In this document: piece after piece, positions 2,135 through 39,646 of the stretch
How positions within the stretch are numbered: the stretch's first letter is position 1
How the letters are laid out: every line of letters begins with the position of its first letter
NCBI GenBank assembly: GCA_947561395.2
Contig: OX387194.1
Coordinates: forward strand, 20,384,048-20,448,047
From: Buxus sempervirens
Lineage: Eukaryota; Streptophyta; Magnoliopsida; Buxales; Buxaceae
Direction of reading: 5' to 3'
Length of the DNA: 64,000 bases
The notes under the pieces: generated by a model
What the model was told of the DNA's origin: nothing
What the model saw: only the letters and a program-made list of their open reading frames with translations
The model's database searches: none
Program-made: the position numbers and the translations under genes

Positions 2135-2211
2135 CTAAGGAAGGTAATAGTAGTCTTCCTCCCTATATGCCTCAGCAGGATCTACCCCAGTAATCGTCTC
2201 ACCACGAGTAT
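2135..2211 (-). other. Exon-like short reading frame in a solo LTR
   Basis: Directly after an acceptor-like TTTTTCAG comes an open frame of about 25 codons ending ...YREEDYYYLP and stop. The hairpin TGAGATACGAATATCTCA (2236-2253) lies just upstream in the direction of transcription. Its phase relative to the AG matches the other LTR frames in this window (12608-12684, 14594-14685, 21658-21749, 37971-38065, 39184-39275). Function unknown. Confidence 0.5.
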
Positions 2212-3229
2212 CTGAAAAACAGAACAACAACAGAGTGAGATACGAATATCTCAGCGAGTAGCACATGCATGCAGAAATAGTTGATCACATTTTAAAACTA
2301 TGCATCGACAACACTACAATACGTTTAAACAACCAACATCAATTTCCCAAGTTCAAATCAAACAAATCACATCTCAGTTAAGTACAATAACACATCGATT
2401 GGTCAATGTCATGACTATCGTTTAGTTGATAAATTAAACATGCCAAGTAGACACTCCACACCTCCATGTACACAGTTCCGGCCTACTCAGGGTTTCGGAT
2501 ACTCTGAAATGATGGCCTACTCAGGGTTTCGTCATCCAATGCAGGCCTACTCCCCAAGTTTCTGCATTGACAACCAGGCCTACTCAGGGTTTCTGGCTGC
2601 TCTACACCGGTCGTGGCAACACACAAGGCCATGCAATTCCAACAACCAACAATAACATCACATTACTAAGCTTAAACATCTGGATCCAGGACAAGCTAGA
2701 CCAAAACAGTAAAACATCGTATAATCTCAATACCAATATCAAAGAAAAACCATTCATTTCATATCATGTAAAACTCATCACAATTCATCACCTGTCCCTC
2801 TGGACCAAGCAGTACCTCCAGTACATTTAGTATTTTCTCATTTCCGTAACACAAGTCATATGAAAGTAAAACTCAATTCATTCATACCAAGGAAATCTTT
2901 ACAATAGATTTAAAGTTTCCAAACCAGTGAAACTAGAATAGAATAACTCCTCAATCAAAACAGTGTATAAAACAGAGGAAGTATAATTAGTGACTCTTAG
3001 TGGTTTGGTATCCGGCATAATATTCATGAATAACCTAAACTCAACTTGAAGCTTTTAAGAAATTCACTCAATTTTCCTCTAATAGTTTCCTAGGCAAAAT
3101 AGATTCCCAGGGTTCCTAAACAAGTGAATAGTGAAGTGGTTTAATCCTCAGGTAACCCAAATACCCTTAGTTAATTCAAATCTCCAATTCAATAAGCAAA
3201 ATAGGTCTGCTGCTCACTTACTGAGGTGG

Positions 3230-3440
3230 GCGCGAGGTGAGCGCCGGTCGGCGGTGAAGAAAAGGGGTAAAATCGACCTACCGCTCACTCGACGCTAGGT
3301 GAGCGTGAGCTGAGCGCGAGATGGGCGTGAGGTGGACGCGAGATTCGCGCGAGATGGGCGCATAGTTTTCCGCTGAGCGCGAGCTGAGCGGCAGCCGGGA
3401 GCGAGCTCGGCGGTGGGTCGTTTTTAACGGGGCGCCGGTG
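3230..3440. repeat. Word array GAGCGCGAG/GTGAGCGC in an LTR
   Basis: About 200 bp of imperfectly repeated GC-rich words (GGTGAGCG, GAGCTGAGCGCGAG, GAGATGGGCGCG) in otherwise AT-rich DNA. Related words recur in the Tat-like LTRs at 5740-6020 and 8474-8516, which are a different family. Confidence 0.75.
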
Positions 3441-4360
3441 AGCACGAGGTGAGCGGATACCCCCTGTGATTTTCATTTCTCTGTTATTTCGAGATCTACA
3501 TGACTGGCCGGTTTGTGAACCTCTGTAATTGTTCTACTACACTCCTAGTACTCCCAGAAGACTTCCCAACCATATTTGGAATTAATCTAAACACTTTCAA
3601 TTTCAAATATAAAATTCAATCCGGAGACTCTGTTCATGTAATTCCCGAAAACCAGAAAAAAACAGAAAACTCATACTATCACTTAATATATAAACCATGC
3701 ATCAGAATAATCTCGAGAGAAACATAAAACACAAAACCCCAGTTGTAAATCAGTGCTACTCACCTGAGCGCGCTTATTCCCGAATGGTAAAACCTCGGCC
3801 GATCTCTACTCCGGCCACGCACGCGAAGGAAAATCTCTCCAAACCAAACTTCTCGAGCAGCGAGAGTTAACCCACCGAACTTCAACTCCGAACTCCTTCT
3901 TTCAGCACTTGCGATTTATGGTTCTTCACGAACAGAAACCCTAGTCGCCACTCCAGCCGAAATCGCTAGTTCTCCTGATGTCCAGACTTAACGAAAATGT
4001 TTCCAAAATTATGATAAGCGTATTCTCATAACCCCAAACCCTACTTTCCATTTTTAGTACACTTACTTGATACATACGCCGCTCGAATACTCTCCCATTT
4101 CCTTGATCCTATGCATGCTCGCCCACCGGAGATACTACATGTTCCGCATCCATTCGCGTTAATAATCACATAACTATACTTTAATAGTAACAATGATAAT
4201 ACTACGATTTTTCGGAAAAATGGCTATATAACGCCTGTACATATGAGTGTGGGCTAAGCCCTCAAACCACAAAATAACCTGATAAACACAGTTTATACAT
4301 CAGAATAAATAACTAAATAAATAAATAAATAACTCACAAAATTCAGGGTCTTACAGTAGT

Positions 4361-4453
4361 AAAAACCCTAAATATCAACTAATCCCTCTTGGTTGACTCA
4401 TTCTAACCAGGGGTTCTATTGGGCTGAGAACATCCCCAGTGGAGTCGTCAGGC
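4361..4453 (-). other. Start of a Tat-like element leader with primer-binding-like site
   Basis: Reading the minus strand, the LTR ends with GCGCGCACA at 4454, three bases (GCC) follow, then TGACGACTCCACTGGGGA (4450-4433). This has the position expected of a primer binding site. Tat/Ogre-group elements are known for tRNA-Arg-type sites, but I could not check the match to a tRNA. It marks the neighbouring LTR as a 5' LTR and not a solo one. Confidence 0.55.
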
Positions 4454-6028: not shown

Positions 6029-8473
6029 TGTGCGCACCCCATTTCGGGCCGCACGACGAGGTGCAGGAAGAAGTGATGCTCGCCTCGGGACTGGTTTGGA
6101 GTCGCCATTGCCTGAAAGGTGCAGGCAGACACAAAAGGGGCACCTATTCGGGTCTAATTATTCTGGTCTGCGGCTTATTAGAGTTCTGAGTAAGTTCTCG
6201 GTTACGTCTAGGGAAGCCCGAAGACACCCTAGCCCGCCCCATCGATTGACAGGTCCCGTGGGTCTCCTTGGTCTTGAGTCAACTTAATTCTCACCCTCCC
6301 TAGACCAGCATGTACACTTATTTGGTTTGAGTGGGGACCATTGATGGTGTAGGTTCCCCTTTTATTTGATTTTATCTTTTTATTATTTGGTGAAGTGAGT
6401 CGGCTACGGGCCCTATTGGAAGGCCCGTTGGGATCCAAATTGGGCTTAAGGCCCAGTAGGGTCATTGGGTAACCCTTTTTGGTTATTTATTAAATTAAAC
6501 TATTTACACATGCAATGGGCTTAGTGGGCTTGGAGTTAGCCCATTAGCCAAGGGTCAGGGGGCCTAGGCCTGTTTATTGAAAACAGGCCTGGTATAAGCC
6601 AGTCAAAGGTGGGCCCTACAAGTGGGCCCAAGGTGGGTCTTGGTGGGCCCATCTGGGTCTATGGTCCAAAAGTGGATTTAAAGAAGTCCAAATTACTTAT
6701 TGGATCGGGTTTTAAGTTTTCGGGTCGAACCAAATCCAACCGGGCCAAAAAATTATATTTTTTAAGTTATATTTACACTATCTTGTATTTGTTATACGGG
6801 CTGCCCTTGCCCGTAAATGCAATTCGGTTCGGGCCCGCCCGTGAAGCAAATAAGGGCATGCCCGAACCGTTCTGAGTTTACGGGCATACTCAGATTTGCA
6901 TTTTTGCTGCCGATTCTGCTTGGGATCCATTCCGTGTTCTCTTTGGAACGTTCTGCAACATCTGGGACGGTTCCATTGCATTCGTGATTTGTCATTTACT
7001 TCAAATATCCTCCTTTTGAAGCATTTGTTGATGAAGCCTTCTCTTTTCCTCCTTTTATCAAGTCATTTCCCATCCCATCTTATGGCATTTGAAAGAAAGG
7101 ATAGGGGGGAAAGAATATTACAAGGGATCAATTTGCATTAGCAAATATAGTTTAAGCAAAACATATCATTCCTTATATCTTGTTCTTTTTGTTCATTTTA
7201 TGGGTCCACCTTCCTTTTCTTTCACCAATGGACACTCATTTGTGTAGGAGAATTCCAGCAAGAGTGAAACAAACAGGTTAGTTGAAATGTAAAAAGATAA
7301 GAGAAAAAGATACAAAATTGTATGAGGAAATGCACATGTATATTGAAAAAGAGATGGGAAACATTACCAAATTACAAGTTCCCTTTTTTGAGGATGTTGG
7401 GATTCTCAGGGAATTTCAGCAGCTCTTCCACGTCCTCCGGGATTTTCTAGGTTGATTTTAAAAGGGGTTCGGTAGGAGGTTGGGTTTAAAAAGAGGCATT
7501 TGAGGGTTTAGACATGATTTTGGGATGACAAGGGCATTTTGGGTATTAAATAGGTTTAGGTATTGGGAGAGACAAAATTTTGGCAGGGTTTGGTCGTAGG
7601 AACTTCATGGAGGGAGAAGGATTCGGCCTAAGGGGAAGGCTTGCTAAAATGAGGGGGGTGGCCTCTCTATTTATAGGCAAAATTTTCGTACCCGTATTTG
7701 AAGTAAGGCATGCCTTGCCCGTACTTCAAGTACGGGCATGCCTTGCCCGTAATTCAAATACGGGCGAAAAACGCACATTTTCAAATCTCGCAAAATCGGC
7801 CGTACGGGACGCGTGTTCCGCCGTACAGCGACACGTGTCCCCTTCTAGAAGCTTGCCCGTATTTGAAATACGGGCATGCCTCGCCCGTACTTCAAATACG
7901 GTCCAGCACGTTTTTAGAATGTTGGATTTCAAATGCTTTATTAAATTTGATTTATTTTAAAGATTTTTTGATTATTTTATTATAAAAACGAGATTCTTTT
8001 ATTAAAATATTATTAAAAAATAAAGATATTTTTATTAAATGATTATTTTATTTATTTAATTCATTTATTCTGCTTTTTGCTGCTGTTTTGCCACATGGGC
8101 AGCTTTCTTTGAAACTTCAACTGCCCATAACTTTTCCGTCCGATGTCCGATTTCAGCAAATTGGTGTCATTGGAATCGGCTCGGAATTCTCTATCCAATG
8201 GGATCAAATGGGGCAGTTGAATTGGGGTTGAGCAAAAAGTCAACTTTCGCTTCCCCAAAATTTTGACCGGCTCATAACTTCCTCATCCGGACTCTGATTC
8301 TGGCAAACTCGGTTGCGTTAGAACCGTGTCGAAATGCTCTTTTCAATGAGAGGAAGTTTGATGGTCAATTCTCTTTGAATTAAAAAGTCAATTTTCAGGC
8401 CCCTCAGGGTTTGACTTTTTAATTGAAATTTCCATTTTCTTCATTTTTGGGGTGCAAAAATCAGGTGCTAACA
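6029..8473 (-). mobile_element. Tat-like solo LTR nested in a Tat-like LTR
   Basis: A 2445-bp minus-strand LTR. Its right end on the plus strand is GGTGCTAACA (LTR start TGTTAGCACC) and its left end is TGTGCGCACCCC. The flanks are ACGAG (6024-6028) and GCGAG (8474-8478), four of five bases equal, which fits an aged target duplication inside the GCGCGAG array of the host LTR. The TATA box is at 7668-7676 (minus). ACGGGCATGCC-type word arrays lie on both sides of the promoter (7680-7905 and 6790-6890), and TGGGCC-rich sequence at 6400-6700. No coding capacity. Confidence 0.8.
7680..7905. repeat. Palindromic word array CCCGTA...TACGGGCATGCC
   Basis: Repeats of GCCCGTACTTCAAGTACGGG-like inverted pairs separated by CATGCC. 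A related but weaker array lies at 6790-6890. It is private to this LTR copy in the window and sits just upstream of its TATA box. Confidence 0.8.
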
Positions 8474-12607: not shown

Positions 12608-12684
12608 ATACTCTCGGTGAGGACCCGTCTATTAGGGTAGAGCCAGCTGATTTCTATAGGAGAGATGATTACTACTTCCCTTAG
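12608..12684 (+). other. Exon-like short reading frame in an LTR
   Basis: After TTTTTAG, an open frame of about 25 codons ends ...FYRRDDYYFP and stop. Same phase and same closing motif as at 2135-2211, but most other residues differ. Confidence 0.5.
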
Positions 12685-14432: not shown

Positions 14433-16584
14433 TGTAACGCCCCGAACCCGGGTCACTAATATAATCAACCATCAATCTCAATATGAAAGTTTGGTAAAAT
14501 AAAAGGGTCACTATCTCTCTCATCTCTCTAATAAATCAAACCAAATGAATAATAGTCTAATCAAAATAACTAAGTCTATATCAATCCTCCACCTCAGACA
14601 ACATCCGGATAATAGAAATCCTTCGGTGAATAATCAGCTAGCTTTCCCTGGAAATCACTACTACAATCCTCCTCTCGCATATCAGCTGAAAAGATGAAAT
14701 AAAAGTAGGGTGAGATACGAATATCCCAGTAGGTAACACATGCATGTTTAAATAGTTCATATAAGTAAAATAACAGTTCATGTACGATTAAGCAATATCG
14801 ACTAAGCAAGCTCGTATAATCATTCGTATCGATCAAGAATACAAAACAGTTCTAAATATGATTTTTAACAAGTTCTATCATACGAATCCAATATTAGAAT
14901 CATTAACTTAATCCATACTTTGCTAGGATGCACTAAATAGTCACATCCGACCAATATCTCAATCACATGCCTCCAGCATGTATACAATAGTAATAACCAG
15001 TGTTTGTGATTTTAGTGTCATTGTAGGACTCACAAAGATAGATAAACCTTTTGAGATGACTCTCGACCAATCACTATACCACCGTGCGTCTTAGGAGTAA
15101 TGCTACTAATGATACTCAAGTCCCATGCAGCGCAGCTTAGACAAGAGCCATAGTCACTAACTTATTGCACACGTACCCATCAAAGTTGGCATGTACCACT
15201 AGCGTGCAACACCACAACCAATACATAGAGATGGTCGCTTATCCACATGTACAGGGGCTCACCAGTGGCTCACCGGGGTGTCCCTTCAAACATAGGACCT
15301 TCCCAAACAAACAAACTTGCAAAGGAAGCACGCTCGCACAAGGGAGAAACTCAACCCAAATGACATATCCCTCAGCTATCTAGCAACAACTATGGATCCA
15401 TAACTAGCTATGCCCACTAGACTCCAAATATCCCTAAAGTCTAATAATTCTATAAGGCTTGGTGCCTAGCGGCATATAAAGGTTAAATCTGTCAATTACT
15501 TCAATATTCGAGTTAACTGAGTTCTGAATTCTCTTTATGTAATTATCTGGTTTATAGTGAAATTTAGAGATGTTTTGGTAATCAAATAATAGTCAAGTTT
15601 TCCAAATACTATATTTCACAGTTTTAAACAAAGTTTGGCAACTAGTGTCCTAAATATCTCCCTATTTTATTTTTCGGTAAAACAAGGAATTAGATAAATT
15701 GTTTTGGTCTTAAAACATCTCAATTAATGATTAAAATTGACTAAAAATAGTTTGGAATTGAATCAGGTTTGAAATTACGAAAATCTGAAATTTCTACACA
15801 TAGCGCCTAGGATTGCCCCGGCGGTCTAAGGTCAGCGGTAGGTCAAATTAGATCGCCGACGATAAACCTTCTTGCGATCTCGGGCGGTCTCAAATTTTTA
15901 ACTAGTGCCTAAGAGCGCCGAGGATCGCCGAGCACAGTCGAGGTCGGCGGTCCCCCGAAAACGAACAGAAACAGTTTAAAAACGTGATTTTTCCTATTCT
16001 AAGCAATCCCACAATACTTATAACGATTATATCATGCATTATACATATATCTACATCATAAAAACATGGTTTGAAGATTAAACACACGTAAATACAAAAC
16101 AGTCGATCAAACGGTGTCACCTACCTCTATTCGCATGGTTTCTCCTTCTCCTCTTGAACAGCAACGAACTCTAACACCAAGCAATGCTCTGGACGATAAA
16201 GAACACAAGCCAACATCCTTATTTCTTCTTCTTCTTCAATCACACAGTCGCTCTTTCTCTCGGTTTTGTCTCTTGCGGCTGTAGAATACGTGCAAGTATT
16301 CTAAACGTATAGAATTAGGTTATTAAACTATTATATATACTCTCTGATCCCACCTATCTCATATGCATTAGACTCCATACACACGCCCAATCATATCTAT
16401 TAAAAATTAAAGTGTTAATCATACCTTGATATCTCATGATTGGACGGTCAGATCTGCGTCCAACTCTGGATCTCCACTAATTATATCATCCCCTACATTA
16501 ATAAAATATTTCCATCAATTAAAATTCCAAGGGATATTATTTATTAATTTATTTTATTATTTAAGGAAAATTTGGGGTTTTACA
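14433..16584 (-). repeat. 3' LTR of the 14433-23651 chromovirus
   Basis: 2152 bp. The plus strand reads TGTAACGCCCC at the left and GGGGTTTTACA at the right. TATA box near 16331-16340 (minus), donor-like GAG/GTAGGTGA near 16122, CGCCGA/TCGGCG word array at 15800-15960, hairpin-like sequence at 14711-14728 and an exon-like frame at 14594-14685. A polypurine tract abuts its right side. Confidence 0.9.
14594..14685 (-). other. Exon-like short reading frame in the 3' LTR
   Basis: After the acceptor-like TTTTCAG, an open frame of about 30 codons ends ...SPKDFYYPDVV and stop. The 5' LTR copy (21658-21749) also stays open, with about six residue differences by eye. Confidence 0.5.
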
Positions 16585-16605
16585 TCCTCCCCTCCTAAAA
16601 GAAAA
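16585..16605 (-). promoter_or_regulatory. Polypurine tract of the chromovirus
   Basis: On the minus strand, AGGAGGGGAGGA directly precedes the 3' LTR. This fixes the orientation of the element and supports the LTR border at 16584. Confidence 0.85.
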
Positions 16606-19600
16606 TTTTCATCCTCGAAATTTACCTTGTAATTCTGGAAATAGCTAGGTTAGGATACTTCCTCTGCATTTCCGACTCCAACTCCCAAGTAGCTTCCTCA
16701 ACTGTGTGATTCTGCCATAGTACTTTCACAAGTGGAATCACCTTAGTACGAAGAACTTGCTCCTTCCTGTCCAAAATCTCAACTGGATGTTCCTCATAAG
16801 TCAAGTCTCCTCGCACTACCAATGGTTCATGCTGAATGATATGAGTAGGGTCATGCACGTACTTCCTCAACATAGAAACATGGAATACGTCATGAGCTCC
16901 TTCCAGCTGTGTAGGCAAATCCAATTTTTATGCCACTGGTCCCACTATACTCTTAATTTCAAATGGACCTATATATCTTGGAACCAACTTGCCTTTCTTT
17001 CCAAATCTCTTAATCCCACGAGATGGAGATATCTTTAGAAATACAAAATCTCCAACCTCGAAATGCAAATCTGTCCTTCTAGTATCTGCATAGCTCTTCT
17101 GACGACTCTGGGCTGTTAGCATGTTTTGTCTAATCTGATTTACCTTCTCAATGCTATCCTGTACAATCTGGGACCCAATAAGTTGTCTTTCTCCAACTTC
17201 CACCCAGAACACTGGGGATCTACACGGTCTGCCATAAAGTGCCTCAAATTGTGTCATCTGAATACTCGCCTGATAGCTATTATTATAGGCAAACTCCACC
17301 AATGGTAGGTGCTGATTCCAATTGCCTCCCCAATCCATAACACAACATCTCAGCATATCTTCCAACGTCTGAATGGTACTCTCAGACTGTCCATCTGTCT
17401 GAGGATGATAGCTGATGCTGAAATTAAGCTTAGTGCCCAAGGCTGCCTGAAATGCAAGCCAAAAGCGCGACGTGAATTGTGCATCTCTGTCAGACACTAT
17501 GGAAACTGGTACACCATGAAGTCTCACTATCTCCTTGACATATAGCTCAGCTAAAGACTTCAACTACTGTGTATTGCTAATAGGCAAGAAGTGTGCTGAC
17601 TTAGTCAGTCTATCCACAACAACCCAAATAACATCTTCCTTCTTGACTGTCAATGGTAACCAAGATACAAAATCCATGGTCACATGTTCCCACTTCCATT
17701 CTGGAATAGGAAGTGACTGAAGTAAACCAGGTGGCTTTCGATGTTCAGCCTTCACTTGCTGGCATGTCAAACATTTAGCCAGATACTCTGCAATCTCTCT
17801 CTTCATTCTTGACCACCAATAGATTTCTTTCAAATTCTTGTACATCTTTGTACTTCCTAGGTGAACTGCATACCTTGATCTATGGCCCTCTGTCAATATT
17901 TTCTCCTTAATCTGCTCATCAGCTGGAACACAAATACGGCCTCAATATCTCAATAGCCCATCTCTATCTGAAAAATCTGCAACTGCCTCAGATCCTCTAC
18001 TCATCATCTCCCTGGTCTGAATCAACTGTGAGTCAGTCAACTATCTCTCCCAAATCAACTGAACCAAATCTGGCTCAATCTGAACACGGGCAACTCTGAT
18101 CACTCCATCCTGTGGCATGCTAAACTCTCCCTGCCAATCTCTGACTGAATCCACTAATCTACACTGGCTCATCATAAAAGCTGCTAAAGTGGCTACCTGA
18201 TCCTCAACTGCACTTTTTCTGCTCAAAGCATCAGCCACTACGTTTGCTTTACCAGGGTGGTATTGCAAAGTAAACTTGAAATCCTTAAGCAGATCCATCC
18301 ACCGACGGTGCCTCATATTAAAGTCTCTCTGTGAAAACAGATATCTCAAGCTCTTATGGTCAGAAAATATCTCAAACTCTACCCCATAAAGATAATGCCT
18401 CCATAATTTCAATGCGAAGACTATGGCTGCTAACTCTAGATCGTGAGTAGGGTAGTTCTTCTCGTGCGGCCTCAAAAATCTCGAAGCATACGCTACAACT
18501 CTGCCCTGCTGCATCAAAACACATCCCAAGCCGATCCTAGAAGCATTACAATATACTGCAAATGCCTTGTCCATGGATAGCACAATCAAAACTGGGGCAG
18601 TAGTCAACCTTTGCTTCAATTCCTGGAAACTCTGCTCACATTTCTCATCCCACTGGAATTTCACTGCCTTCTTGGTTAGATTAGACAAAGGTGCAGCTAT
18701 ACGAGAAAATCCTGCGATGAATCTCCTATAGTACCCTGCCATACCAAGGAAACTCCTGACCTCTGTCACTATAGTGAGTCTAGGCCATTCTGCCACTGCC
18801 TTAACCTTCTCAGGGTCCACAGATATACCCTCACCTGAGATAACATGACCTAAGAATCAAATCTGTCCCAGCCAAAACTGACACTTGCTGAATTTCCCAT
18901 ACAGTCCGTGTCTCTCAAAGTGTGCAATACTGCCTTCAAATGCCTAACATGTGCCTCTCGGGTCTTAGAATATACCAGGATGTCATCAATGAATACCACT
19001 ACAAAACTGTCCAAGTATGCATGAAAAATCCTGTTCATGAGGTCCATGAAAACAGTTGGGGCATTGGTCAGTCCAAAAGGCATAACCAAGAACTCATAAT
19101 GCCCATAGCGTGTACAGAAAGCTGTCTTCTCTATGTCCTCCTCTGCTACTCTCAACTGATGGTAGCCCAACCTCAAGTCTATCTTGGAGAACCAAGATGC
19201 ACCTCCTAACTGGTCAAACAGGTCATCAATCCTAGGCAACGGATACTTGTTCTTCACTGTCACTTGATTCAGTTGCCTATAATCAATACAAATCCTCATA
19301 CTACCTTCCTTCTTTTGCACAAACAGAACTGGTGCGCCCCATGGCGACACACTCGGTCTGATGAATCCCTTCTCCTGAAGCTCGTCTAGCTGCTTCTTCA
19401 GTTCCTCTTGTTCTGGTTTCGCAAGCCGATAGGGTGGCTTAGAAACTGGAGCAGTACCAGGCATCAACTGGATCCTGAACTCTACTCCTCTAGTAGGTGG
19501 TAATCCAGGTAAATCCTCTGGAAACACATCCGCAAACTCCTGAACTACAGGTACATCAAAGATGACAAGGGTGTCATTCCTAAACTCCTCTGCTATCACA

Positions 19601-21384
19601 GATGCTACCAGACCAATCCGGGACTTCAACCCCTCACATTTGAAACAATGAGTGGTTTGATCTGGTCCTCTAACTATCACCGCCCCCGCATAGCAATCCA
19701 AAGTCACATGGTGCCTACATAACCAATCCATCCCCAATATTACATCAAAACCTCCAATATCTAAGGCAATCAAATCTCCAAACAACTCCAGTCTACCCAA
19801 TCTAATCATGCAGTCTCTATACATATATTCGACTCTAGTAGACTCTTCCAAAGGTGTGTGTACAAACAATGCAATATCCAATTCAGTGGGTGACAAACCA
19901 ATCTGTCGTGCACAAGCAGGCGATATAAATGAATGTGAAGCACCAAAATCAAACAGAACACATGTTGATCTACCACAAATGTAAATAATACCTCCGATCA
20001 ACTCAGGTGCCTCATGGTCAGCCTCGATATCCTTCACACGCTCAAGCTCATGCTCCTCATGTGCCTCCACTGCATATACTCTAGCTAGCTGTGGTTGCTG
20101 TGCAGGTACTATCTGCCTCTGACCTCCTCTCTGAACTGGTCCCCTGCCCTAGGGCTTCTGCCCAATTGGTGCTCTCTGAGCTATCTGTTGAAACTGTGGC
20201 CTCTGTGGGAAAGCAGGCGCAGGCTCTGACTGTGGTAATGTTTGTCGTGGCACTGCTAACGACTGATAGCTCGAAGAGAAATGACAGTTAGTGGTCCTAT
20301 GACCCGCCTTTCCGCATCTGTAACAAGTGCCCGGTGCCACGACACACGGACCAGGTACATGATACCTGCCACAACTGGCACATCCCCTTGAGCTGGTCTA
20401 TACTGACCTCCTGAAGGCTCTACCCTAGTCCAGTCTCTGGGCCTCTTGTTCCCACTAAGGAAACCTCTCTGGTCTGCCAGCCTCATAGGTGGTCTAACTC
20501 TGCTCTAGCTCACTCTAGCCTCTATGTCACTCTCAGCCCTGGTGGCTCTACGTACCACGTCCTTCAGTTCTATGCATAAGAGTACCGTCAGCATACTCTT
20601 AATCTCAGGCTTCAGACCCCGTTCAAAATGTGAAGTTAGCCTCCTCTCATCCTGTGTCATGTGGGGTGCAAATCGAGATAAGGCTGCAAATCTAGCCTCA
20701 TACTTGGCCACTGTCTGGCTCCCCTAGGTAATCTCCATGAATTTTCGCTCCTTCTCGAGCCGAACCTCCTCAGAAAAGTACTGGTCGTAAAAGACCTCTC
20801 GGAATCTATCCCAAGTCATGTAGGTAGCCTGAAGGTCCTGCCTCTTCTTGGCTGTCCACCAGTGAACTGCCTCACCCTCAAATAAGAATGCTGCCAATTG
20901 CACTCTCCTGTCCATCGGGCATCCCATGGCATCAAAAATCCACTCCACTCGCATCAGCCATCTCTCAGCCTCCATCAGATCTAGACGTCCACTGAAGATA
21001 GGTGGATCCAACTTCCTAAACTGTTCTAGATCCTTGGCCGTCTGTATCGCTCTCTCATGTATAGGCTCATCCCCATGACCATTGCGCCCATTTCCACCAT
21101 TGCCATGCTGGCTCAGTCTCTCCTCCCTTTCCTTGGCAAGAAGCTCTGCCAAGCTACTAACGACTACCCACACATCACCCCCTGGAGGTGGTGGAGGTAA
21201 TGGAACATCCTGCTGCTCCTCCTCAACATCAGCTCTCTCTACAGGATCAGCTCTAGCACGTCTCGCTCTACCAGCCATCTCCAAAATACAATTTCACTTG
21301 TTAGAATTCGATAATTCTAGGGGTTCTACCTAGCATACTCACAATCCCATTCCCCTAAATGGCTATCTAAGGTTAGGACCATTT

Positions 21385-21400: not shown

Positions 21401-23651
21401 TGTAACGCCTCGAACCTGGGTCAATGAAGAACCAACATCCAACCCGAACCCAGTTTTGTGCAGAAATTTCAGATTGCGGAACAAGTATGTGCGGAAGTAT
21501 AGTCTAAAATCCTCAATAACTAATGTAATCAACCATCAATCTCAATATGAAAGTCTGGTAAAATAAAAGGGTCACTATCTCTCTCATCTCTCTAATACAT
21601 CAAACCAAATGAATAATAGTCTAATCAAAATAACTAAGTCTATATCAATCCTCCACCTCAGACAATATCCGGATAATAGAAATCCTCCGGCGAATAATCA
21701 GCTAGCTCTCCCTGGAAATCGCTACTATGATTCCTCTCTCGCGTATCAGCTGAAAAGATGAAATAAAAGTAGGGTGAGATATGAATATCCCAGTAGGTAA
21801 CACATGAATGTTTAAACAGTTCATATAAGTAAAATAACACTTCATGTACAATTAAGCAATATCGACTAAGCAAGCTCGTATAATCATTTGTATCGATCAA
21901 GAATACAAAACAGTAGAGTTAAACAGTTCTAAATATGATTTTTAGCAAGTTCTATCATAGGAATCCAATATCAGAATCATTAACATAATCCATACTTTTC
22001 TAGGATCCACTAAACAGTCACATCCGACCAATATCTCAATCACATGCCTCCAGCATGTATACAATAGTAATAATACGTGTTTGTGATTTTAGTGTCATTG
22101 TAAGACTCACAAAGATAGACAAACCTTTTGAGATGACTCTCGACCAATCGCTATACCACCGTGTGTCTTAGGAGCAATGCTACTAATGATACTCAAGTCC
22201 CATGCAGCACAGCTTAGACAAGAGCCGTAGTCACTAACTTATTGCACACGTACCCATCAAAGTTGGCATGTACCACCAGCATGCAACACCACAACCAATA
22301 CATGGAAATGGTCGCTTATCCACATGTACAGGGACTCACCAGCGGCTCACCGGGGTGTCCCTTTAAACATAGGACCTTCCCAAACAAACAAACTTGCAAA
22401 GGAAGCGCGCTCGCACAAGGGAGAAACTCAACCCAAATGATATATCCCTCAGCTATCTAGCAACAACTATGGATCCATAACCAGCTATGCCCACTAGATT
22501 CCAAATATCCCTAAAGTCTAATAATTCTATAAGGGTTGGTGCCTATTGACATATAAAGGTTAAACCTGTCAATTACTTCAATATTCGGGTTAACTGAGTT
22601 CTGAATTCTCTTTATGTAATTATCTGGTTTATAGTGAAATTTAGAGATGTTCTGGTAATCAAATAATAGTCAAGTTTTCCAAATACTAGATTTCACAGTT
22701 TTAAACAAAGTTTGGCAACTAGTGTCCTAAATATCTCCCTAATTTATTTTTCTGTAAAACAAGGAATTAGATAAATTATTTTGGTCTTAAAACATCTTAA
22801 TTAATGATTAAAATTGACGAAAAATACTTTGGAATTGAATCAGGTTCGAAATTACGAAAATCTGAAATTTCTGCACAGAGCGCCTAGGATCACCCCGGCG
22901 GTCTAAGGTCAGCGATAGTTCAAATTAGATCGCCGACAATAAGCCTTCTCACGATCTTGGGCGGTCTCAAATTTTTAACTAGCGCCTAAGAGCGCCGAGC
23001 ATAGTCGAGGTCGGCGGTCCCCCAAAAACGAACGGAAACAGTTTAAAAACGTGATTTTTCCTATTCTAAGCAATCCCACAATACTTATAATGATTATATC
23101 ATGCATTATACATATATCTACATCATAAAAACATGGTTTGAAGATTAAACACATGTAAATACAAAACAGTCGATCAAACGGTGTCACCTACCTCTATTCG
23201 TGTGGTTTCTCCTTCTCCTCTTGAACAGCAACGAACTCTAACACCAAGCAATGCTCTGGACGATGAAGAACACAAGCCAATGTCCTTCCTTCTTCTTCTT
23301 CTTCAATCGCACAGTCGCTCTCTCTCTCGGTTTTGTCTCTTGCGACTGTAGAATGCGTGCAAGTATTGTAAACATATAGAATTAGGTTATTAAACTATTA
23401 TATATACTCTCTGATCCCACGTATCTCACATGCATTAGACTCCATACACACGCCCAATCATATCTCTTAAAAATTAAAGTGTTAATCATACCTTGATATC
23501 TCATGATCAGACGATTGGATCTACGTCCAACTCTGAATCTCCATTAATTATATCATCCCCTATATTAATAAAATATTTCTATCAATTAAAATTCCCAAGG
23601 ATATTATTTATTAATTTATTTTATTATTTAAGGAAAATTCGGGGTTTTATA
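21401..23651 (-). repeat. 5' LTR of the 14433-23651 chromovirus
   Basis: 2251 bp, about 100 bp longer than its partner. TATA-like sequence near 23398-23406 (minus), CGCCGA/GGCGGTC words at 22875-23025, hairpin-like sequence at 21777-21794 and exon-like frame at 21658-21749. Pyrimidine-rich (CTT)n and (CT)n stretches lie near 23285-23335 in the leader. Confidence 0.88.
21658..21749 (-). other. Exon-like short reading frame in the 5' LTR
   Basis: After TTTTCAG, an open frame of about 30 codons ends ...SPEDFYYPDIV and stop. Compared with 14594-14685 it shows substitutions but keeps phase and terminal motif. Confidence 0.5.
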
Positions 23652-25481: not shown

Positions 25482-28400
25482 TGTAAAATCATGAATTTTT
25501 GAATATAACAATAATATGATGAAATAAATCTAAATATTAGAGAATAAATTAAATAAACCTAAACATATTGATAAGTAAAGATTTAATTTAGGTATTGGAG
25601 GATTAACCTTATAATCCAAAGATATATGAATAATTAAATAAATAAAAAATTATTCTGAGTAATTAGGAATTTTAATAGTAACTTCAATTAATTAGAAAGA
25701 TTAAATATAGATTGACTTCAAGAAGAGTTATATAGTAATTAATAATAAATAGAAAAGGGGATAATTGATTAAGATAAATTAGGAGAGCAAATTAAATATA
25801 GAGGTTTGGGGAAGATAGGTATTAGTTTAAGTGTAGGTTAAAGACAAGAATATTATAAGAAATAAATATGGGTATTTTTGGAAGAGATCCAATGGCTAAA
25901 TGTGAGATAAGTAAAGAGAAAAAGGTATTTTAGTCTTTTCCTAATAGGCCAATTAATAAATTAATTAATAGAATTGGAAATATTTAATTAGACTTAATTT
26001 GGGTTAGGTTTGAATTTAAATAGCAAATTTCTGGCTTAAAAGAAAGAAAAAGAGCATATTGGTAATTATGATTAATTATGGGCCTTAATTTGGGAAATAT
26101 GAGAGATAATGAGGTGTTTTAGTAATATTTTAAAATAAGGAATTAAATTAGTAAGAAAATAAAGAAAAATAGAAGTTTCTTATAAATTAGATTTAAGAGA
26201 AAATAATTAGAAAGGGATATAAGATAGGAAGGTTTTCCAAATAGAATTAAGAATCCTAGTTAGAAAGTTTCTTAATCCAATTAGGACTTGTAATTGGGTG
26301 AGTCTATAAAAGGAAGGCATTAGGGAAGATTTAGGGTTTCCATTAATCCAATCATGTGGAGAAAAGGAGAGAGAAAATTCGTGCATAAGGTTGAAAAAAA
26401 TAGATAAAGAAAAATAGAGAGAAAATAAGAGACTTCAGAGAAAAAGAGGAGTTGTAGAAAAGTCTGACCAACAACATCAAAGTACGATCGGGAGACGATA
26501 AACTGTTGGCTTGACCTCAAATTTGGAGGTTTTGTTCTTCATTGGTGGTTATTCAATCTGAACGGTGGAGATGATGTTTGGAGATCCCTAGAGTAGTGCA
26601 ATAATAGTAGAAACATAGCCATATTTTAAGGTTCATTGAGAATATGGATTTCACGTTCTTGAGGCCAAAACTGACTTAGCAAAGAACGCCCAATAGGCCG
26701 CTCGAGCGCAATATCAAGCGACCATTGTTAGAATTTTCCAGATTTTGGATTTTGTCCCCAAATATATTCTGAATGATTTTTCTTAGAATTCTAAAGTTGT
26801 AACACCCGTAATTAGGGTAGTATGAGATGTAGGAAGTGACGGAATGAAATTTGGATAAAAAAAAATAGTAATTTGGAACGATGAATGTAAATATGGATTT
26901 TATAGAGGTATTTTGAGGAACATGTGGACTTAACCTATTTAGATCTGATTTTGGGCAACATTACCAATTCCTAAACTTCACTACATACCTAAATAACCCT
27001 TTGAAAGGATCAAATATTAATATTAATAAGTTTTGGCACCTTAGGTTCTTAATAGAAGAAATTTGGACATTATTGAGTAAATTATTGAGAATAACAACCA
27101 ACTCGGAGATGAAATTAAGCAAGACGTAATATATGAATTTAGTAAGCTATCTAACACTTAAATATTAGTAAATTAAGAGTATTCACATTAATAAATTATT
27201 GTTTAGGCATTTAATTAAAGAATTTGGCATATTTTGGTAAAGATGACATGTTTCTAAGGTTTGGATTGTGTTTTCTATTTAGTTCCAGATTTGAGCAATT
27301 TCTTATATTCAATATTATATTTCTCGATAATTGCGTATGGTTTCATTGATAAATTGGCAGAATCATTGTTTTACCTTTGTGTACTAGGGGATGTCCCATG
27401 TACTTGGGATGTTGATACCTCTGTGTACTCAGAGATGCCTCGTGTACTCAGGATAAGATATTTGAGATTGAGATGAGATGTTTATTGAAGATTTAGAACT
27501 TATAGTATTGATTGATACATTATTAAGTTATTAAAGGTATTTTATTGTGAAGTTGTGTCTAATAGGCTTAGCTCTTAATGGATCCATAGGGTAGCTAGTA
27601 AATGGAAATGTTTTCTAGAGTTCTTATTCTAGGTCATAGGCATTCTATCATCTCGAGGATGGTACCGCTCCTGAATTTGTTGGTTGCTACGTTATTCACT
27701 CCTTGATTGGTTGGATCGTACAAGCTAACTCACTCCGGTATCGGTTGAGTACTTCCGTTGGGTGTCGAATAGCCTGACTAGTATCGGCTGGCTCACCTCT
27801 AATTCGGTTAGGTAGCATATTGGCACATGTCTGTAGTACTCTGTTTACGATTCTATTAATCCTGAGATGGCATAGGTGTGGTTTGGTGATTGTTATAATT
27901 CATGTATTATGTAACGCCCTGAATCTGGTTCAACAACCAAACCCGGAGTGTTACTAAAAATTCTGGGTCAGAACAAACTAAAATTTATGCGGAATTTAGA
28001 AACTTTTAATTATATCAGAGTACAATTGGAAGCATAGCATATTTAATTCAATTTAATCAAATTAATTTATAATAAGAATTTCTTTATTCTGAATTCGTTC
28101 TATGGTAACAACCACAATTATACCCATGGGTACACTACCCAAAACTTGACTATCTCTCCAAGTATACCTGAAAAATAAGGGAAAACGGAGTGAGATATAA
28201 ATCTCAACAAGTAGCAAGGTGAATGCAATTGAATAGTCTCTTTATGAAATAGTTATGAGGTATAACGATAAATCATAGCAAAAGAAATAATTCAAGTCCA
28301 AGTAAACAATTTCAATATAAACGATAAAATATACTCAAACCACATGTGATATCACAAGATTCATGAAGCAAGATAAGTCTTTGAATAGACACTCTTCGTT

Positions 28401-31121
28401 GCTATGCCACCATGCGTCTTATGAGCAAAGCAAGTAAATCCTCAAACCCGAATCTTAGTCTAACAGTAAGAGGCCTAGACATCGACTTATTGCGCACAAA
28501 ACTCATATAGTTAGGCATGTACCACTAACATGCAGCACCTGAATCAATACATGAAGATGGCCGCTTATCCTCACATACAAGGTATTCATCAGCAACATAA
28601 AACTCGAAATGAGACCTTACAAATATGAAGACCGCCAATGCAAACTAAATTGAAAAGAAAGCACGAGCGCAAATTTTGAGTAATCAACCCAAATAAATAC
28701 CCGTCCACTATCTAGCTTAGCCTGTGGATACATATACAGATATGCCCGCTAGACACAACTCACACGAAGTACAATTTATTCTGTTTACAATCTATTATCA
28801 ATTCATATGCATATTTTTGTAACCCATGATCGCAACTATAATAAGTCAAATCAATTATCATAACTCAATTTCAAGTGGTATATATGTCTCAATTTCATTA
28901 ACTCAAAATTAAACCCTTTTGAGAAAAACACATTCAAAACCACGAATAAATATCCAAACCAGATTCCATAAATATTGATGCACCCGAAACATAATTATTA
29001 AAGGTTTAGACCTATTATAGTTCACAATCCTAAGCACTAATGTGTTTCCTAAGTCTTGACTAACACATCTCTACTTAAATTACCTATTAGTGTTCCACTA
29101 CTATATTTAAAACCTAAGGTATAACATTTTGTATTTTTTGTTATCTTTCACTTCCAGCAATTCACACAGACCCATATTGAATCTTAAGAGTTGGTTCTAA
29201 TTCCCAGATTTATGTTTAACTTAATCTAATCCCCTATTTCCAAAACCTTGACCTTTAAGACACCCAATTGCATTCATTGTTCCAAATTAATAGTTTTAAT
29301 ACCAAATTAAATTCCGCCAGTTCCTACACCTCAATTTAACTCCTATGCAGGTGTTACAATAATTCAATTACTAAGAAAATTTATTAACCATTAAATTAGA
29401 CCTAAAATCCCCAAATATTTAAAACTAACTTAGGTCGCTCGGCATGGTTGCTCAAGCGGTCGTGCTAAGCACTCATACTAATTTCAGCAGATTTCCCAGT
29501 TTTTACAATTTTCTGATTTTTGGGTTATTTCATTTATTTTAATCATTCTAAATTTATTTGTTATTGACCTAAATCACACCTACAACACCCTAGACTTATT
29601 TGTATCAATTAATTGCAATTCCTTGGTCATCTACAAAGATCAAACCTATATTCTTTAATACTTTAATACTTTTCTTTCAAGAACATGAAAACTCATCGAT
29701 GAAAACCAAATGTATCCATAAAATATATTTTTGTCTAATCAAATGAATTAGGAATAAATCAAAAACACAGAAATCATGCAGTTCCTACAGTTTAAGTGTT
29801 TGCTACTTGCCTTAATATGCAAAAATCCATCTTCTCTTGTATCCCGAATTGAATCCAAACTTCTATTATTTTTCGCATCAACCTAGGGTTCTCCAGACAA
29901 GATCTTCTTCATTCAAATTGTAGTCCTACCAGTCATGAACCTCCAAATTTGAGGTCAATCCAATGGTTGGATTTCTCCAGATCTAAATTTGATGGCTGCT
30001 GGTTGGAGGTTTCTACAACAGCTCCTTTCTCTTGTGACCTTCCTATTTTTCTCCTCCCTCTCTCTCTTTATTCTCCAAACGTGGAAGCTACCTTTTTCTC
30101 CTCTTTTTCCCCTATATAACTTGATTAAAAGAAACTTTAAACTTGCTTTAATTACTTGCTTAAATAGACCAACCTTAGAGGAGTTCAATTAAGATTAGGA
30201 AACCTTCTAATTAATTCCTACTTTCTCTCCTCCTTCTAATTCTCTTTTAGTACTTTACCTAATAAGTCCCTTACTAATTAAACTCCTTCCTTCATCAAAT
30301 TTTCGTTCATATTTTATATCTATTTCTAAATATTACCTAAACACCCTATTTAGTTACTTTTTCTCCAAATTAAGGCCACTAATTAAGTATAATTACCCAA
30401 TTGCCTTTTTTCCCTTCTTTTATGCTATAATTATTACTATTCAACTTCAAACCTAACCCAATAAGTTTTAAATTTCTATTTTCCAATTCTATTACTTAGT
30501 AATTTAATTCATCAATTGCCCATTTGGGATTTACTAAAATACCCTTTTCTCCTTCTAGATTGATTTCCTTTGAAAATTCTCTTTTATTTACGAATTATTA
30601 TTTATTTAAATTATCAATCCTCTAAATTTTCATTCTTTTATTTCCCCAATAATCAAACCCCTATTTTCTTTTATTTATTTATGTCTTAATTATTATCCAA
30701 AGTTTCGGGGTTTTACATATTATTATTATTATTATCATGATCTGGTTTAATCGCATACCTCATTACTTGTTTTATATAATTATGGACTATTTTATAGCAT
30801 GCATAGCTACTTGTTGAGATTTATATCTCATTCCGGTTTTCCCCAATTTTCAGATATTCTTGGAGAGGTCGACAAGCTTGGGGTGATTGTGAAAGGGGTA
30901 GTATTTAGTTGAGACCCAAATATGAGTTGATATTGTAAATTGGTTCTTAGTTTATATTTCCACTTGTAACTCTAGTCAGTTGGATAATGAAGTAAAAAGT
31001 TCCTTAGCGTACTTTGATTTATCTTCAACCTTTTTATGTTGTGTACTTCATTATTTCGTTATCATTCAAGTAATGCCCTGATCCGTTAAAAAAAAACAAC
31101 ACTTGGATTTGGGACGTTACA
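25482..31121 (+). mobile_element. Chromovirus-like solo LTR holding a second solo LTR
   Basis: Begins TGTAAAATCATGAATTTTTG and ends GGATTTGGGACGTTACA. Flanks are TTTGT (25477-25481) and TTTGT (31122-31126), an exact 5-bp duplication. Without the nested LTR at 27910-30717 it is about 2.83 kb. It contains a TATA box at 26304-26312, GCTCGAGCG words (26680-26730), tandem GTACTCGGGATG-like units (27385-27450), a hairpin (30815-30830) and an acceptor-like TTTTCAG near 30855. The frame after the acceptor is open for about 20 codons but lacks the DYY motif. No coding capacity otherwise. Confidence 0.9.
27910..30717 (-). mobile_element. Chromovirus-like solo LTR nested in 25482-31121
   Basis: 2808 bp, minus strand, TGTAACGCCC to GGGGTTTTACA, flanked by exact TATTA (27905-27909 and 30718-30722). 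It is a diverged relative of its host LTR in opposite orientation: both share the region around the hairpin (28191-28206 here) and similar length. TATA box at 30112-30120 (minus). GC-rich words at 29430-29470 are few. The acceptor-like TTTTTCAG is followed by a short open frame without the DYY ending. Confidence 0.92.
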
Positions 31122-31126
31122 TTTGT

Positions 31127-32040: not shown

Positions 32041-32579
32041 TGTAAGCACCTCATTTTTGCGCTTCCGAAAGAGCCAGAAATGCAAAACCCGGCTAAAAAG
32101 TCAAACCCTGAGGGGTCGAAAATCAACTTTTTGATTAAGTGAAAATTGGCCACCTTGCTTTATCTCAATGGATAGAGAATCCCGACACGAGTCCAACGCA
32201 ACTGAGTTTGCTGGAATCGGAGTCCAGATGAAGGTTCTGCTGGCCGATCAAACTTAAAGGGGAGCCAAAAGTTGACTTTTTGCCGAACCCCGAGCCAGGT
32301 ACTTAGCTCTATATCATTAGATAGAGGGCTCCGATACGAGTCCAACGCAACTGAGTTTGCTCAATTCAGAGTCCGGATGAAGGAGATATGAGCTGTCAAA
32401 GTTTCTGAGCAGCAAAACCTAGAAAGCTGCACACGTGGCGAGTGGCGCAAGAAAATATCTCGAGGGGCAATCCGTAAATATCCAAACATGTAAAATATCC
32501 CAGGGTTTAAAGCAAAATTTCGCAAGGACCAAATCTATGAATATCTAAGAGTATCGGATGAATATGCGAATATCCAGGG

Positions 32580-32850
32580 ACAAATCTGTGATTTTTCGAT
32601 TTGTATCTGACCAAATATGTCGGATACACATACCTCAGTGTATAACCGACACTATTCATCGGATACAAGGAGATCAGCCCTCGAGATTTGTGCCGATTCC
32701 CCGACAAATTCGCGGCGGCATTAATTTTTCAAATTATTATGTTTTGTATCCGATACTTAATATCGGATACAAAGGGAACCTAGTGTATCCAACCATATAG
32801 GTCGGATACACTAAGGAGGTAGTGTATCCGACCTATATGGTCGGATACAT
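32580..32850. repeat. Inverted words GTATCCGAC / GTCGGATAC upstream of a TATA box
   Basis: At least five near-palindromic units of about 25 bp (for example near 32730-32770 and 32780-32850). A second array with changed words (GATCCGAC/GTCGGATC, TAGCCGAC/GTCGGCTA) is at 35050-35165. The GTATCCGAC words recur in the LTR at 41558-45302. Confidence 0.85.
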
Positions 32851-36210: not shown

Positions 36211-38354
36211 CTAAAGAAGGAGAGCTAAAAGACTTGGATTTTCTTGTGGTGGTTTGCTCGTTTGGTGGAGGCTTGGTGGATTTTCGTTTAGCGAAGCTTG
36301 AGAGATTTGGGAAGAAATCTTCAAGGGGCTCAAGGGAGAGCTGTTTGTGGCTTGCTTTAGGATCAAGAGGTCGTGCTTGCTTGCTTGCTATAGGTAAGCA
36401 ACACCCTTCCAACCCAAAACCTTCTTGCTTTCTTGATTTGAAAAGATTTGAGATTTAGGGTTTTTGAATATTTATGTTTCCCTTACGAATAGGAAGTACA
36501 TGTGTTCATGGTTAGATGAGTACTAGGTGATAGCTTATCTGAGAGAAATTTAAGAGAAAAAAAGCATAGAAAAGGGGTTAGATTTGAGAAAACCCTAAAA
36601 ATTTGCGTTTGGGCGATTTTCGCGACCTGGAAATCGCCAGGGCGCCTGGCATAGTGCTCGAGCGCTATGCTAAGCACCCATTTTAACTATTGTTCATAGG
36701 CGAAGCTGCTTGAGTGCAATCGCGAGCACCCCTCTTGTGTTTTTTTTCTAAAAACTCAGAACCCGAGACTTGAATTTTTGGTTAAGCTGGGCGCTCGAGC
36801 GCAATTGTAGGTGCCTTGGGCAGTTTTGGGACTTTTGGGAATTATGAGTGTTTCCAATTACATATTGTTTTTATTTGAATCCAACCTATGTACAAATAGG
36901 ATTTTAGGTGTCTAGGAAGTGTTCCCACTGGAATTTCCTCAAAATTCAAATTAACCAAGAGTTTGGGTACGTTCTACTGAACTAGGTTTCATAGAGAGTT
37001 TTGGTTCCAGATTTCTATAGGAATGGTATATTTTAATTCGACCACTTGGAACACCTTTCAAATGATCCCTGGAAGTAGAAAACCAAAGCCAACACAAGTT
37101 GTGAATGTTTCTAATGAGTTGGGGCCTAGGTTTCCCAAGTAATGTGTGAAAAATTCATGATTTAAGACCATGAACTTGTCTTGTTGCTATTGTTTATTGT
37201 TATAGCATGTGATATATTATGAAGGGCATTGGCACAATTGTTAAACATGGTATGAAGGGCATTGGCCTGATATTTGACATATGTATGGAAGGCAGTGGCC
37301 CGATTCCATGAGGTAATGATAAAGGGCATTGGCCCAAGTTGATATGGGTGAGGCTATGAAGCTAACCTTTGAAATTTTACATGCATAAGTTGCATGAGAT
37401 GTGATACAGAAATTAATTAAATGAATTTGCATAATGAACAACCTTAATTTATGGATCCATAAATCTTAAGTAGGTATGTTTGTATATAATGCTATGACCG
37501 AGTTACTGTTGTTCTTGTATTGCTTCACCGTGTATTATTCCAGCACCAAGGAACATCGGTGGCCGATGCCCATAGCTACGGGGAATTGGCATGGATGCCC
37601 TGCGTCAAGGGGAATCGGCGTACAGTTGCCTAACGTCAAGGGGAATCGGCATCGGATGCCTAGTCCACCATGAGGAATCGGTGGAGTTGGATGTGGTCAT
37701 GTGCAATATGTATTAAACTACCTAGATAACAAATTGCTAAGACTTGATGCATGATTATTTCTTTATTGTTTGACTTGTACACATAAGCACGGACATACAC
37801 CACTTGCATGTATTATATTGAATTGATGGTGAATTTAACTATTATTTCAACCACCCGCATGTCATGATTTGTTCCGAATGATATTAGCATGAATTGCGCT
37901 TTCTCGAACATGCATGTGTTGGTTATTGAGACATTCGTCTCATAAGTTGTTCTATCAGTTTTGTTTTCAGAGCCGTCGACTTCCGATGTGAAGGACCGGA
38001 TTGGGAATAGAGGAAAGGAGAAAGCACCAAGGTACCGAGAGGAGGATTATTACCGTCCTACTTAGAGTTTCATTTTCTTATATATGATAGTTGTATATTT
38101 TGGATTGTAGACCCTTATAAGTGAGATGAGTGATTAGACACCTATCGTTTTTTTGTAATAGCCAAGTAGTTTTTGTATTTAACCATGTAGTTCATCGCAA
38201 GAATTGTTCATCTATATATACACTTTGATATGCACATGTATTAGCTGTCCTATCACTAAATTACCCATGTATTTATTAGGTTGAAAGGCCTACCCATAAT
38301 GACCAGGGACAAGTGAGTGCCTTGGATGGGCAAACCTAGTTCCGAGTCGTTATA
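36211..38354 (+). mobile_element. Third piece of the split LTR: intron-like part, hairpin, 3' end
   Basis: Continues after the solo LTR 32041-36205. It holds donor-like ATAG/GTAAGCAAC (near 36391), GCTCGAGCGC words (36600-36830), three GAAGGGCATTGGC units (37215-37340), four GGGGAATCGGCAT units of about 37 bp (37545-37690), hairpin 37927-37942, TTTTCAG (37970) and an exon-like frame. The 3' end is taken near 38354 (...GAGTCGTTATA) by likeness to other LTR ends. That border is uncertain. Confidence 0.55.
37971..38065 (+). other. Exon-like short reading frame in an LTR
   Basis: After TTTTCAG, an open frame of about 31 codons ends ...YREEDYYRPT and stop. Same phase as the other LTR frames; the middle is basic (RGKGEKAPR). 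Confidence 0.5.
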
Positions 38355-39646
38355 TTTCATGTGTTGGATTTATGAAAGCGAGGTTGAAAAACTCTTATGT
38401 GATTTGACAAGGCTTTTGGCCTATGGTTTTATTGGTGGTGGATGGGGAATTCCACTAGGCCCCGATTGGCTTGGCAATGGAAGGGGAATTCCACTTGGCA
38501 TATCTTATGATTTAGCAGTAGATGGGGAATCCCACTTGGCCCTGGTTTTAGCACTAGTTTCACTTACTGATTTGAACAATTTGGATTTGAGTCGTGAGTC
38601 GTCTAATTGGACATCGTTCTTAGTGTGGATCCACAGTGAGTCTAGTCAGTGTGTTGGTGTTGGCTTGTTAGACTTAATGTCCTTGTCCATATAGCTTTCC
38701 ACTGTGGGGTATCAATGAGGCCCTCTTCAGGCATAGAGGTGCTATGGCAACCACCCACTGTGGTGTATCAACGGGAGTTCTTGTGATTCATATGGTTTGG
38801 TTTAGTAGTGGATGGGGTATTCTATTTGGCCTTGATTATTGGTTTAATTGTCACTTGCTAGCCCATACAGGGGTGCTCGGCTTGTTGAGTTGTTCTTAGC
38901 TAGGCTTCTCTCTGTAAGTCGTGTAGGTGGCAAATCAACAGTGGTCATTAATCTAATTTAGAGACACGCTAACCCATGAGTCCTAACAAGACATGCTTGT
39001 AATATTTGATTGCTTTTATTGAACTGATTTCATGTGTTATCCGATTGAGATACTTTGACTTGAGACTTACACTTTATATTTGTGGATATTTTCATGATGT
39101 TATAAAACTGCATAAACTGTTTTTATATATGCATGTTTCTTGCTTACTGGGATTTTCGTCTCACGTGTGTTTTGTTTTACCAGATTTATTTTCGGATCCT
39201 CTTGGTGAGCCACGTACTGGGGCAGAGGTTGAGGGTGAGCTTAAGTACAGGCTAGAGGACTACTACCACCCATAGTAGGGTTCTCCTTGTGTTATTGTAT
39301 TTACTTTTTGAAAACTATAAATGGGATTGTAAATATTCTTTTTGGGACTTATATACTTGGGAGTTGATTTTTGGTATATGTCTGTATATATGAGAAAGAG
39401 AGATGGTGAGCATCTTAGTTGCCTTTTTGTATCCACAAATATCCCATCATTTGGAGTTATTATACAGGTGACCCTTTCGTATGACGGAAATTTGTATTCT
39501 ATGCTTCTTTAGCTTATGCACTCTGATGAATAATACTTTGTAATTGCCCAGGTTAATTGTATTAATTAGGTTCTTTTGGGCTTATAAGTAGGTCTCGGGG
39601 ATGAATCAATGTCGTGATAGGGCAAACCCGGTTGTAGGGCGCTACA
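38355..39646 (+). mobile_element. Partial chromovirus-like LTR, 3' part
   Basis: Contains three GATGGGGAATTCCACTTGGC units (38435-38545), a degenerate hairpin (39148-39163), TTTTACCAG (39183) and an exon-like frame. Ends GTAGGGCGCTACA at 39646. Its 5' part is replaced by the LTR ending near 38354. It sits inside the minus-strand LTR that starts at 39647, exactly at that LTR's acceptor-like site. Confidence 0.6.
39184..39275 (+). other. Exon-like short reading frame in an LTR
   Basis: Open frame of about 30 codons after TTTTACCAG, ending ...YRLEDYYHP and stop. The reading frame is also open upstream to 39006, across the hairpin. Confidence 0.5.

Follow-up and report, generated by a model that had tools for sequence, protein, structure and literature searches.

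A candidate terminal coding exon of gag-pol inside the long terminal repeats of Buxus sempervirens chromoviruses

The window element and the LTR reading frames

The window analyzed here is a stretch of 64,000 nucleotides from Buxus sempervirens (contig OX387194.1, positions 20,384,048 to 20,448,047 of the forward strand), and it contains a Ty3/gypsy retrotransposon lying on the minus strand. The 5′ long terminal repeat (LTR) of this element occupies approximately 21401..23649 and the 3′ LTR 14433..16584, and the 5′ LTR forms a direct repeat with 14455-16582 at 93.8% identity. The 3′ LTR begins with TGTAA and ends with GTTACA, giving the TG...CA termini of an LTR, while the first bases of the 5′ LTR read TATAA. 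The 5′ LTR ends in GAGGCGTTACA and is followed by TGGTATCAGAGC, which we take to be a primer-binding site of the tRNA-Met type. Between the LTRs, pieces of gag, protease, reverse transcriptase (RT), ribonuclease H (RNaseH), and integrase were found in interrupted frames (16928..21293, minus), with Pfam matches to Retrotrans_gag, RVP_2, RVT_1, RT_RNaseH, and SH3_Tf2-1 and with rve below the cut-off. The C-terminal region of the integrase, including a chromodomain, lies at 16652..16924 (minus), where SH3_Tf2-1 fell below the cut-off and Chromo was weak; Chromo was under its curated cut-off in all three sequences (E-values of 0.00034 for the window element, 0.0034, and 0.00012). With rve and Chromo read below their cut-offs, the order protease-RT-RNaseH-integrase and the chromodomain at the integrase C terminus are those of a Ty3/gypsy chromovirus. 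The element may belong to the Tekay (Del) clade, a tentative assignment by likeness with which the position of the chromodomain, upstream of the polypurine tract, is in keeping.

A sequence-only reading of the window had proposed that six LTR copies carry, directly after an acceptor-like AG, a short open frame of constant phase with a shared ending. All six frames were found where they had been placed, in the phase given by the final G of the AG plus two bases and with the 25-31 codons claimed for them. The candidate exons lie at 2135..2211 (minus; ending REEDYYYLP-stop), 12608..12684 (plus; RRDDYYFP-stop, in an LTR that ends at ~12941), 14594..14685 (minus; PKDFYYPDVV-stop), 21658..21749 (minus; PEDFYYPDIV-stop), 37971..38065 (plus; REEDYYRPT-stop), and 39196..39275 (plus; LEDYYHP-stop), the last being given from the start used by its family rather than from the originally proposed 39184. 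The remaining two frames each contain at least one stop in all six blocks, and a T-rich stretch ending in AG is found immediately upstream of every block. The 14594 block belongs to the 3′ LTR of the window element and the 21658 block to its 5′ LTR, and the set therefore represents five separate insertions, or LTR types, rather than six. The LTRs carrying the 2135 and 12608 blocks are related to one another (68-69% identity), and the former lies within an LTR of another family, solo or 5′, at 1888..4355 (minus; start TGTAAGACCC, end GGGGCGTTACA), ahead of which no polypurine tract was seen.

The same reading had listed three further LTRs that keep the opening of the frame but not its ending. 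This was borne out for the LTR ending at 27910 (30717-27910), where an acceptor is followed by a related opening that runs into a short ending of another kind (exon at about 28118..28167, minus); the other two were not recovered when parts of the 25482 and 58189 regions were scanned in a simple way. A comparable opening, again with a different short ending after an acceptor, was found at 30854..30912 (plus) in an LTR ending at ~31121 that had not been listed.

The sequence ahead of the blocks consists of a CTCAC or CTCAT motif, a T-rich run, and YAG. Plant 3′ splice sites look like this. An alternative is that the frames encode an unspliced small protein, starting at the ATG of a TGCATG motif ~54-60 nt ahead of the block. 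Such an ATG does lead without a stop into the frame of the 2135, 12608, and 39184 copies. Of six relatives examined for the last of these, four keep the frame open from the same ATG, a fifth has a different one, and the sixth has none. The 14594, 21658, and 37971 copies lack it, however, and the intervening stretch has the appearance of a 3′ splice site; start codons ahead of the block were not conserved among the LTRs, and this explanation is considered highly improbable. A second alternative is that the block is kept for a role of the RNA or DNA itself, in promoter function, polyadenylation, or packaging, the frame being a by-product. In its favor, blastn matched the 14594/21658 LTRs to the 2135 and 12608 LTRs, in the stretches compared, only at about -83 to -19 relative to the block. 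Against it, the shared ending is found in one frame only.

A donor-like site at the end of pol

The LTR frame opens with the last two bases of a codon, and a donor leaving one base over would complete it. In the window element, a splice-donor-like sequence, CAAG/GTAAAT (slash, putative exon-intron boundary), is present where the chromodomain region ends (16625..16626, minus; exon ending at 16626, intron beginning at 16625). Directly after it lies an imperfect inverted repeat of the AAATTTCG-loop-CGAAATTT type (16604..16623, minus). The predicted intron would extend over 14686..16625 (minus) and comprise the polypurine tract and most of the 3′ LTR. It would end in an acceptor region (14686..14745, minus) made up of a CTCAC motif, presumably branch-site-like, a T-rich tract, and TTTTCAG. 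The candidate exon begins ~1.9 kb into the LTR, near its 3′ end, and the distance from the end of the exon to the end of the LTR is 160 nt in the 3′ copy and ~256 nt in the 5′ copy.

The genome (676 Mb, 247 contigs) was searched for related elements in two ways. A first sample of 20 loci was taken from diverged RT matches; 13 of these had a chromodomain end, and the seven without were dropped. A second sample of 20 loci came from a search with the chromodomain (60-89% identity) and all 20 had a chromodomain end, as the query implies. Together with one further copy, described below, and the window copy this gave 35 donor sites, each positioned at the end of the integrase chromodomain directly ahead of the polypurine tract and the 3′ LTR. 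AG/GT was present in 33 of the 35 and GTAA in 32, the two copies without GT having AT instead, and one base of a codon was left over in 34; the single exception is the window copy, which carries a frame-changing difference just upstream of its donor. Among 20 further copies of the dominant family, CAAG/GTAAAT with one leftover base was found in 18, the others reading CCAG/GT and CAAA/GT. The reading frame was kept as far as the GT and not beyond, where it is shifted by runs of 0, 2, 3, 4, or 5 A residues. The unspliced frame stops 2 to 24 codons past the donor (stop included), sometimes only inside the start of the LTR, and has no common ending. A frame held up to a donor and lost beyond it is what the end of a coding exon should show.

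A palindrome of the AAATTTCG-AGGA-CGAAATTT type follows the donor in the window element and ~30 relatives, with a mean of 7.1 of 8 positions paired as compared with 2.9-4.8 when the arms were slid; these counts include three misplaced rows (L093, L100, and L101) and miss one copy (L087). One of the pairs occurs as C-G, T-G, and T-A, a variation that CpG decay could mimic.

The relationship between donor and LTR exon was examined in 42 elements fetched at both ends (39 tabulated elements and the LTR stretches of L162, L165, and L167). The donor and a homologous, in-phase open exon were present together in 24 of the 42 (22 of the 39, plus L099 and L165), so that the donor and acceptor phases match across copies. 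All 24 paired elements have one leftover base at the donor, and the homologous acceptor site reads AG in 22 and AA in two (L122 and L178). In L122 an upstream TAG had been picked as the acceptor, while the homologous site reads CAA. The paired elements cover five LTR types, distinguished by similarity in both exon and LTR sequence: the 14594/21658 type, types ending ...EEDYFIPV and ...VED[DN]YYCLM, and the 37971 and 39184 types. An automatic exon match in L131 was not homologous and was discarded. The additional donor copy mentioned above comes from L123. At 350-620 of this locus, a nested insertion places the LTR end of one family directly against the chromodomain end of a different one, and a further family was recognized through it.

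The proposal that an acceptor directly precedes the frame did not hold in the family of the 39184 LTR, in which AG was found at the expected site in only 3 of 21 copies and GG replaces it in most sampled relatives. This loss was initially taken as counter-evidence. It was resolved by a second site 12 nt downstream that reads AG in 16 of 21 copies, AA in 4 of 21, and GG in the window copy; 12 nt being four codons, the phase is unchanged. One element of this type, L099, combines a donor of the usual phase with a 39184-type LTR and has TTTGTTTTCAG 12 nt further in, and in most copies of the family the predicted peptide ends in EDYY, then H or Y, then P.

These observations bear on the alternatives. 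A role of the block as RNA or DNA only does not account for the agreement in phase, seen in five families, with a donor-like site at a distance of 1.2-3.6 kb, and we regard it as very unlikely. The frames might also be a chance placement of stops in recent copies of few families, since retention within families comes largely from recent common ancestry and the six blocks were selected by their ending. The conserved donor phase, the pairing of donor and exon, and the inner in-phase AG of the 39184 family all argue against this, and chance is given next to no credence as an explanation.

A further alternative is that the acceptor belongs to a 5′-leader intron within the 5′ LTR, the exon being untranslated leader and its frame either incidental or an upstream open frame. 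The block is indeed present in the 5′ LTR too, which in the window element places it ~256 nt from the LTR end, before the primer-binding site and gag, and donor-like sites occur ~110-160 nt into several LTRs. These sites read AAG/GTGAGT, GAG/GTATGT, and AAG/GTAAGC in different families (L003-L031, L082-L101, and L162), and some fall within CTATATAAG. However, no start codon of constant phase precedes these donors; at +147, ATG (nine) and GTG (nine) both occur among the dominant-type copies shown, and other families have other phases. A first coding exon beginning with an ATG near the LTR start was rejected for the same reason. A leader intron also leaves the phase match with the pol donor unexplained, and is judged unlikely. 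It is possible that one acceptor serves both a leader intron and a pol intron.

Conservation of the frame

The exon frame was intact in 83 of 98 alignable copies from five families (25/30, 19/21, 17/21, 19/21, and 3/5). These copies are the best-matching ones and mostly close relatives, so retention of the frame is weak evidence by itself. The count left out stretches without an alignable exon (L102, L106, and L107; L123, L124, L125, L127, and L129). Apart from the 39184 family, the acceptor AG was kept in 25/30, 19/21, 20/21, and 3/5 copies; the 37971 family accounts for 25/30 intact frames and 25/30 acceptors, and the 12608 family for 17/21 frames and 19/21 acceptors.

The codon-position bias that had been suggested as a check was not significant within families. 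Synonymous changes numbered 80 against 72.8 expected when all changes were counted (p 0.16), 44 against 41.1 for changes seen in at least two copies (p 0.32), and 33 against 26.6 for those in at least three (p = 0.067). Such a weak bias is expected if most copies died after insertion. At the EDYY codons, the minimum numbers of changes at positions 1, 2, and 3 were 1, 2, and 5 (p 0.09), and over seven codons 6, 7, and 8 (p 0.40). When peptides of seven families were compared pairwise, their protein scores summed to 751 in the predicted frame as compared with 453 and 457 in the other two, and none of 500 shuffles reached 751. Neither test can serve as full proof of a coding exon, the within-family bias being nonsignificant and the between-family likeness being mainly that of the ending.

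Several of these results weigh against a coding exon. The within-family synonymous excess is not significant, and where a single family reached p ~0.02 it did so in the predicted frame for the 14594 type but also in a wrong frame for the 39184 type. The weak codon tests and the small frame signal outside the ending are in line with a role of the block as RNA or DNA, as discussed above. The between-family test is partly circular, the exons having been chosen, both in the sequence-only reading and in our own scans, by their DYY ending. When the sequences were cut before the motif, the predicted frame scored 396 and the other two 350 and 356, and a score of 396 was reached by 1 of 500 shuffles; the signal thus sits in the ending and the remainder adds little. 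Eighteen of the 42 pairs fail. Eleven of these show no exon in the stretches fetched (either a broken LTR or a misplaced fetch), six have an exon that is broken or cut off or a donor that is changed (L104, L113, L116, L123, L126, and L131), and the L168 family has the acceptor followed by a 13-residue ending without DYY. The LTR families are also related, so the phase match is not independent for each family. Finally, the surroundings of the donor are palindromic and adjoin the polypurine tract, and there may be another reason for their conservation.

On balance, the view that the LTR block has been under past selection on a peptide or an RNA is supported, and the matching-phase donor-like site at the chromodomain end favors a peptide. 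The circularity of the ending lowered our estimate for a coding exon from 0.74 to 0.70.

Proposed splicing and related systems

The best-supported interpretation of these data is that the LTR block is the 3′-terminal coding exon of the gag-pol gene and would be spliced in from the 3′ copy; we would put the probability of this at roughly 0.7. The donor- and acceptor-like sites, their phase match, their co-occurrence in elements, and the frame-specific likeness at the ending are observed in the sequences. Splicing itself, production of the spliced protein, and a polyadenylation site beyond the exon are predicted from the DNA. The upstream exon would end in CAAG/GTAA or GAG/GTAA three codons after the YPxLF of the chromodomain, leaving one codon base over. 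The intron, with measured lengths of ~1.2 to 3.6 kb, would contain the polypurine tract and most of the 3′ LTR. The LTR exon would then complete the codon with two bases and add a 24-35-residue tail with an ending of the acidic-D-Y-Y type, usually followed by P, and the spliced mRNA would encode an integrase bearing this tail after its chromodomain. An mRNA lacking the polypurine tract and U3 would be usable for translation and not as a template, while the unspliced RNA would remain the genome and code for a short, unconserved end.

It could be that the element makes two RNAs on this basis: a spliced gag-pol mRNA, whose integrase tail (acidic-D-Y-Y-x-P) forms a second module for targeting or partner binding, and an unspliced genome, with both LTRs containing the exon and only the 3′ copy being read. 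The inverted repeat at the donor might restrain splicing and so tune the ratio of the two. This fuller scheme is tentative; we give it a little less than an even chance, slightly lowered by the same circularity. From its place on the chromodomain, a guess would be that the tail acts as an accessory of the integrase or chromodomain, for instance in the choice of target.

Coding sequence reaching into the 3′ LTR has a precedent. In CRM-clade chromoviruses (CR motif) and some Bingo elements of Beta vulgaris, the gag-pol frame terminates within the 3′ LTR (PMC3605345). In those elements, however, the frame continues into the LTR, splicing is not mentioned in the available part of the source, and the CRM chromodomain is encoded beyond the polypurine tract. 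The elements studied here have it upstream instead, and splicing would remove the polypurine tract and U3. The arrangement seen here resembles Tekay (Del), the chromodomain being upstream of the polypurine tract in the clades other than CRM (PMC3605345), although the accessible portions of PMC6317226 and PMC3605345 give no intron or LTR exon for Tekay. In Ogre, partial splicing regulates the polyprotein of a plant Ty3/gypsy element (PMC6317226), but the intron is internal, between gag-protease and RT-integrase, and no LTR exon is involved. EVADE and BARE1 likewise have a separate spliced mRNA for translation, which, according to the part of PMC12786077 available, yields a short GAG and no integrase extension. 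The CERV protein of Cer1 in C. elegans is made from a spliced mRNA of five exons, the last of which is preceded by TTTCAG, but it is a separate regulatory protein (as described in the available text of PMC10309623). Nanopore reads revealed spliced retrotransposon RNAs for Tyran and Varan of sunflower, there encoding truncated GAG or RNase H isoforms, and Tekay elements are missing from the sunflower expressed set (PMC7730604, available portion). Searches of the open-licence literature gave no title or abstract opening that describes a spliced integrase exon in an LTR, subscription literature lying mostly outside this scope.

Other features of the genome and window were recorded. Chromodomain matches are evenly spaced at C15:31962699, 31969407, and 31976115 (6.7 kb), at C6:11571993, 11579139, and 11586285 (7.1 kb), and at C3:36460908 and 36468938 (8.0 kb), which suggests tandem arrays of elements arising by LTR-LTR recombination. 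In the window, 8111-11271 (plus) contains three tandem copies with ~1.4 kb spacing that are 71-80% alike, and an inverted relative lies ~21 kb away at 32039-32586. Long frames resembling endonuclease and reverse transcriptase at 46674-52424 (plus) were judged by eye to be a LINE-type element. A frame at 53052-53903 (minus) has a MYB-like start, AAQLPGRTDNDIKNYWNTKLKKKL, and presumably represents the final exon of an R2R3-MYB gene of the host.

If the LTR block is indeed the terminal exon of gag-pol, which would be an uncommon design, polyproteins predicted from unspliced genomic frames would miss their natural C terminus. The LTR of these elements would then be coding as well as regulatory, and they would have a simple means of switching between RNA for translation and RNA that serves as the genome.

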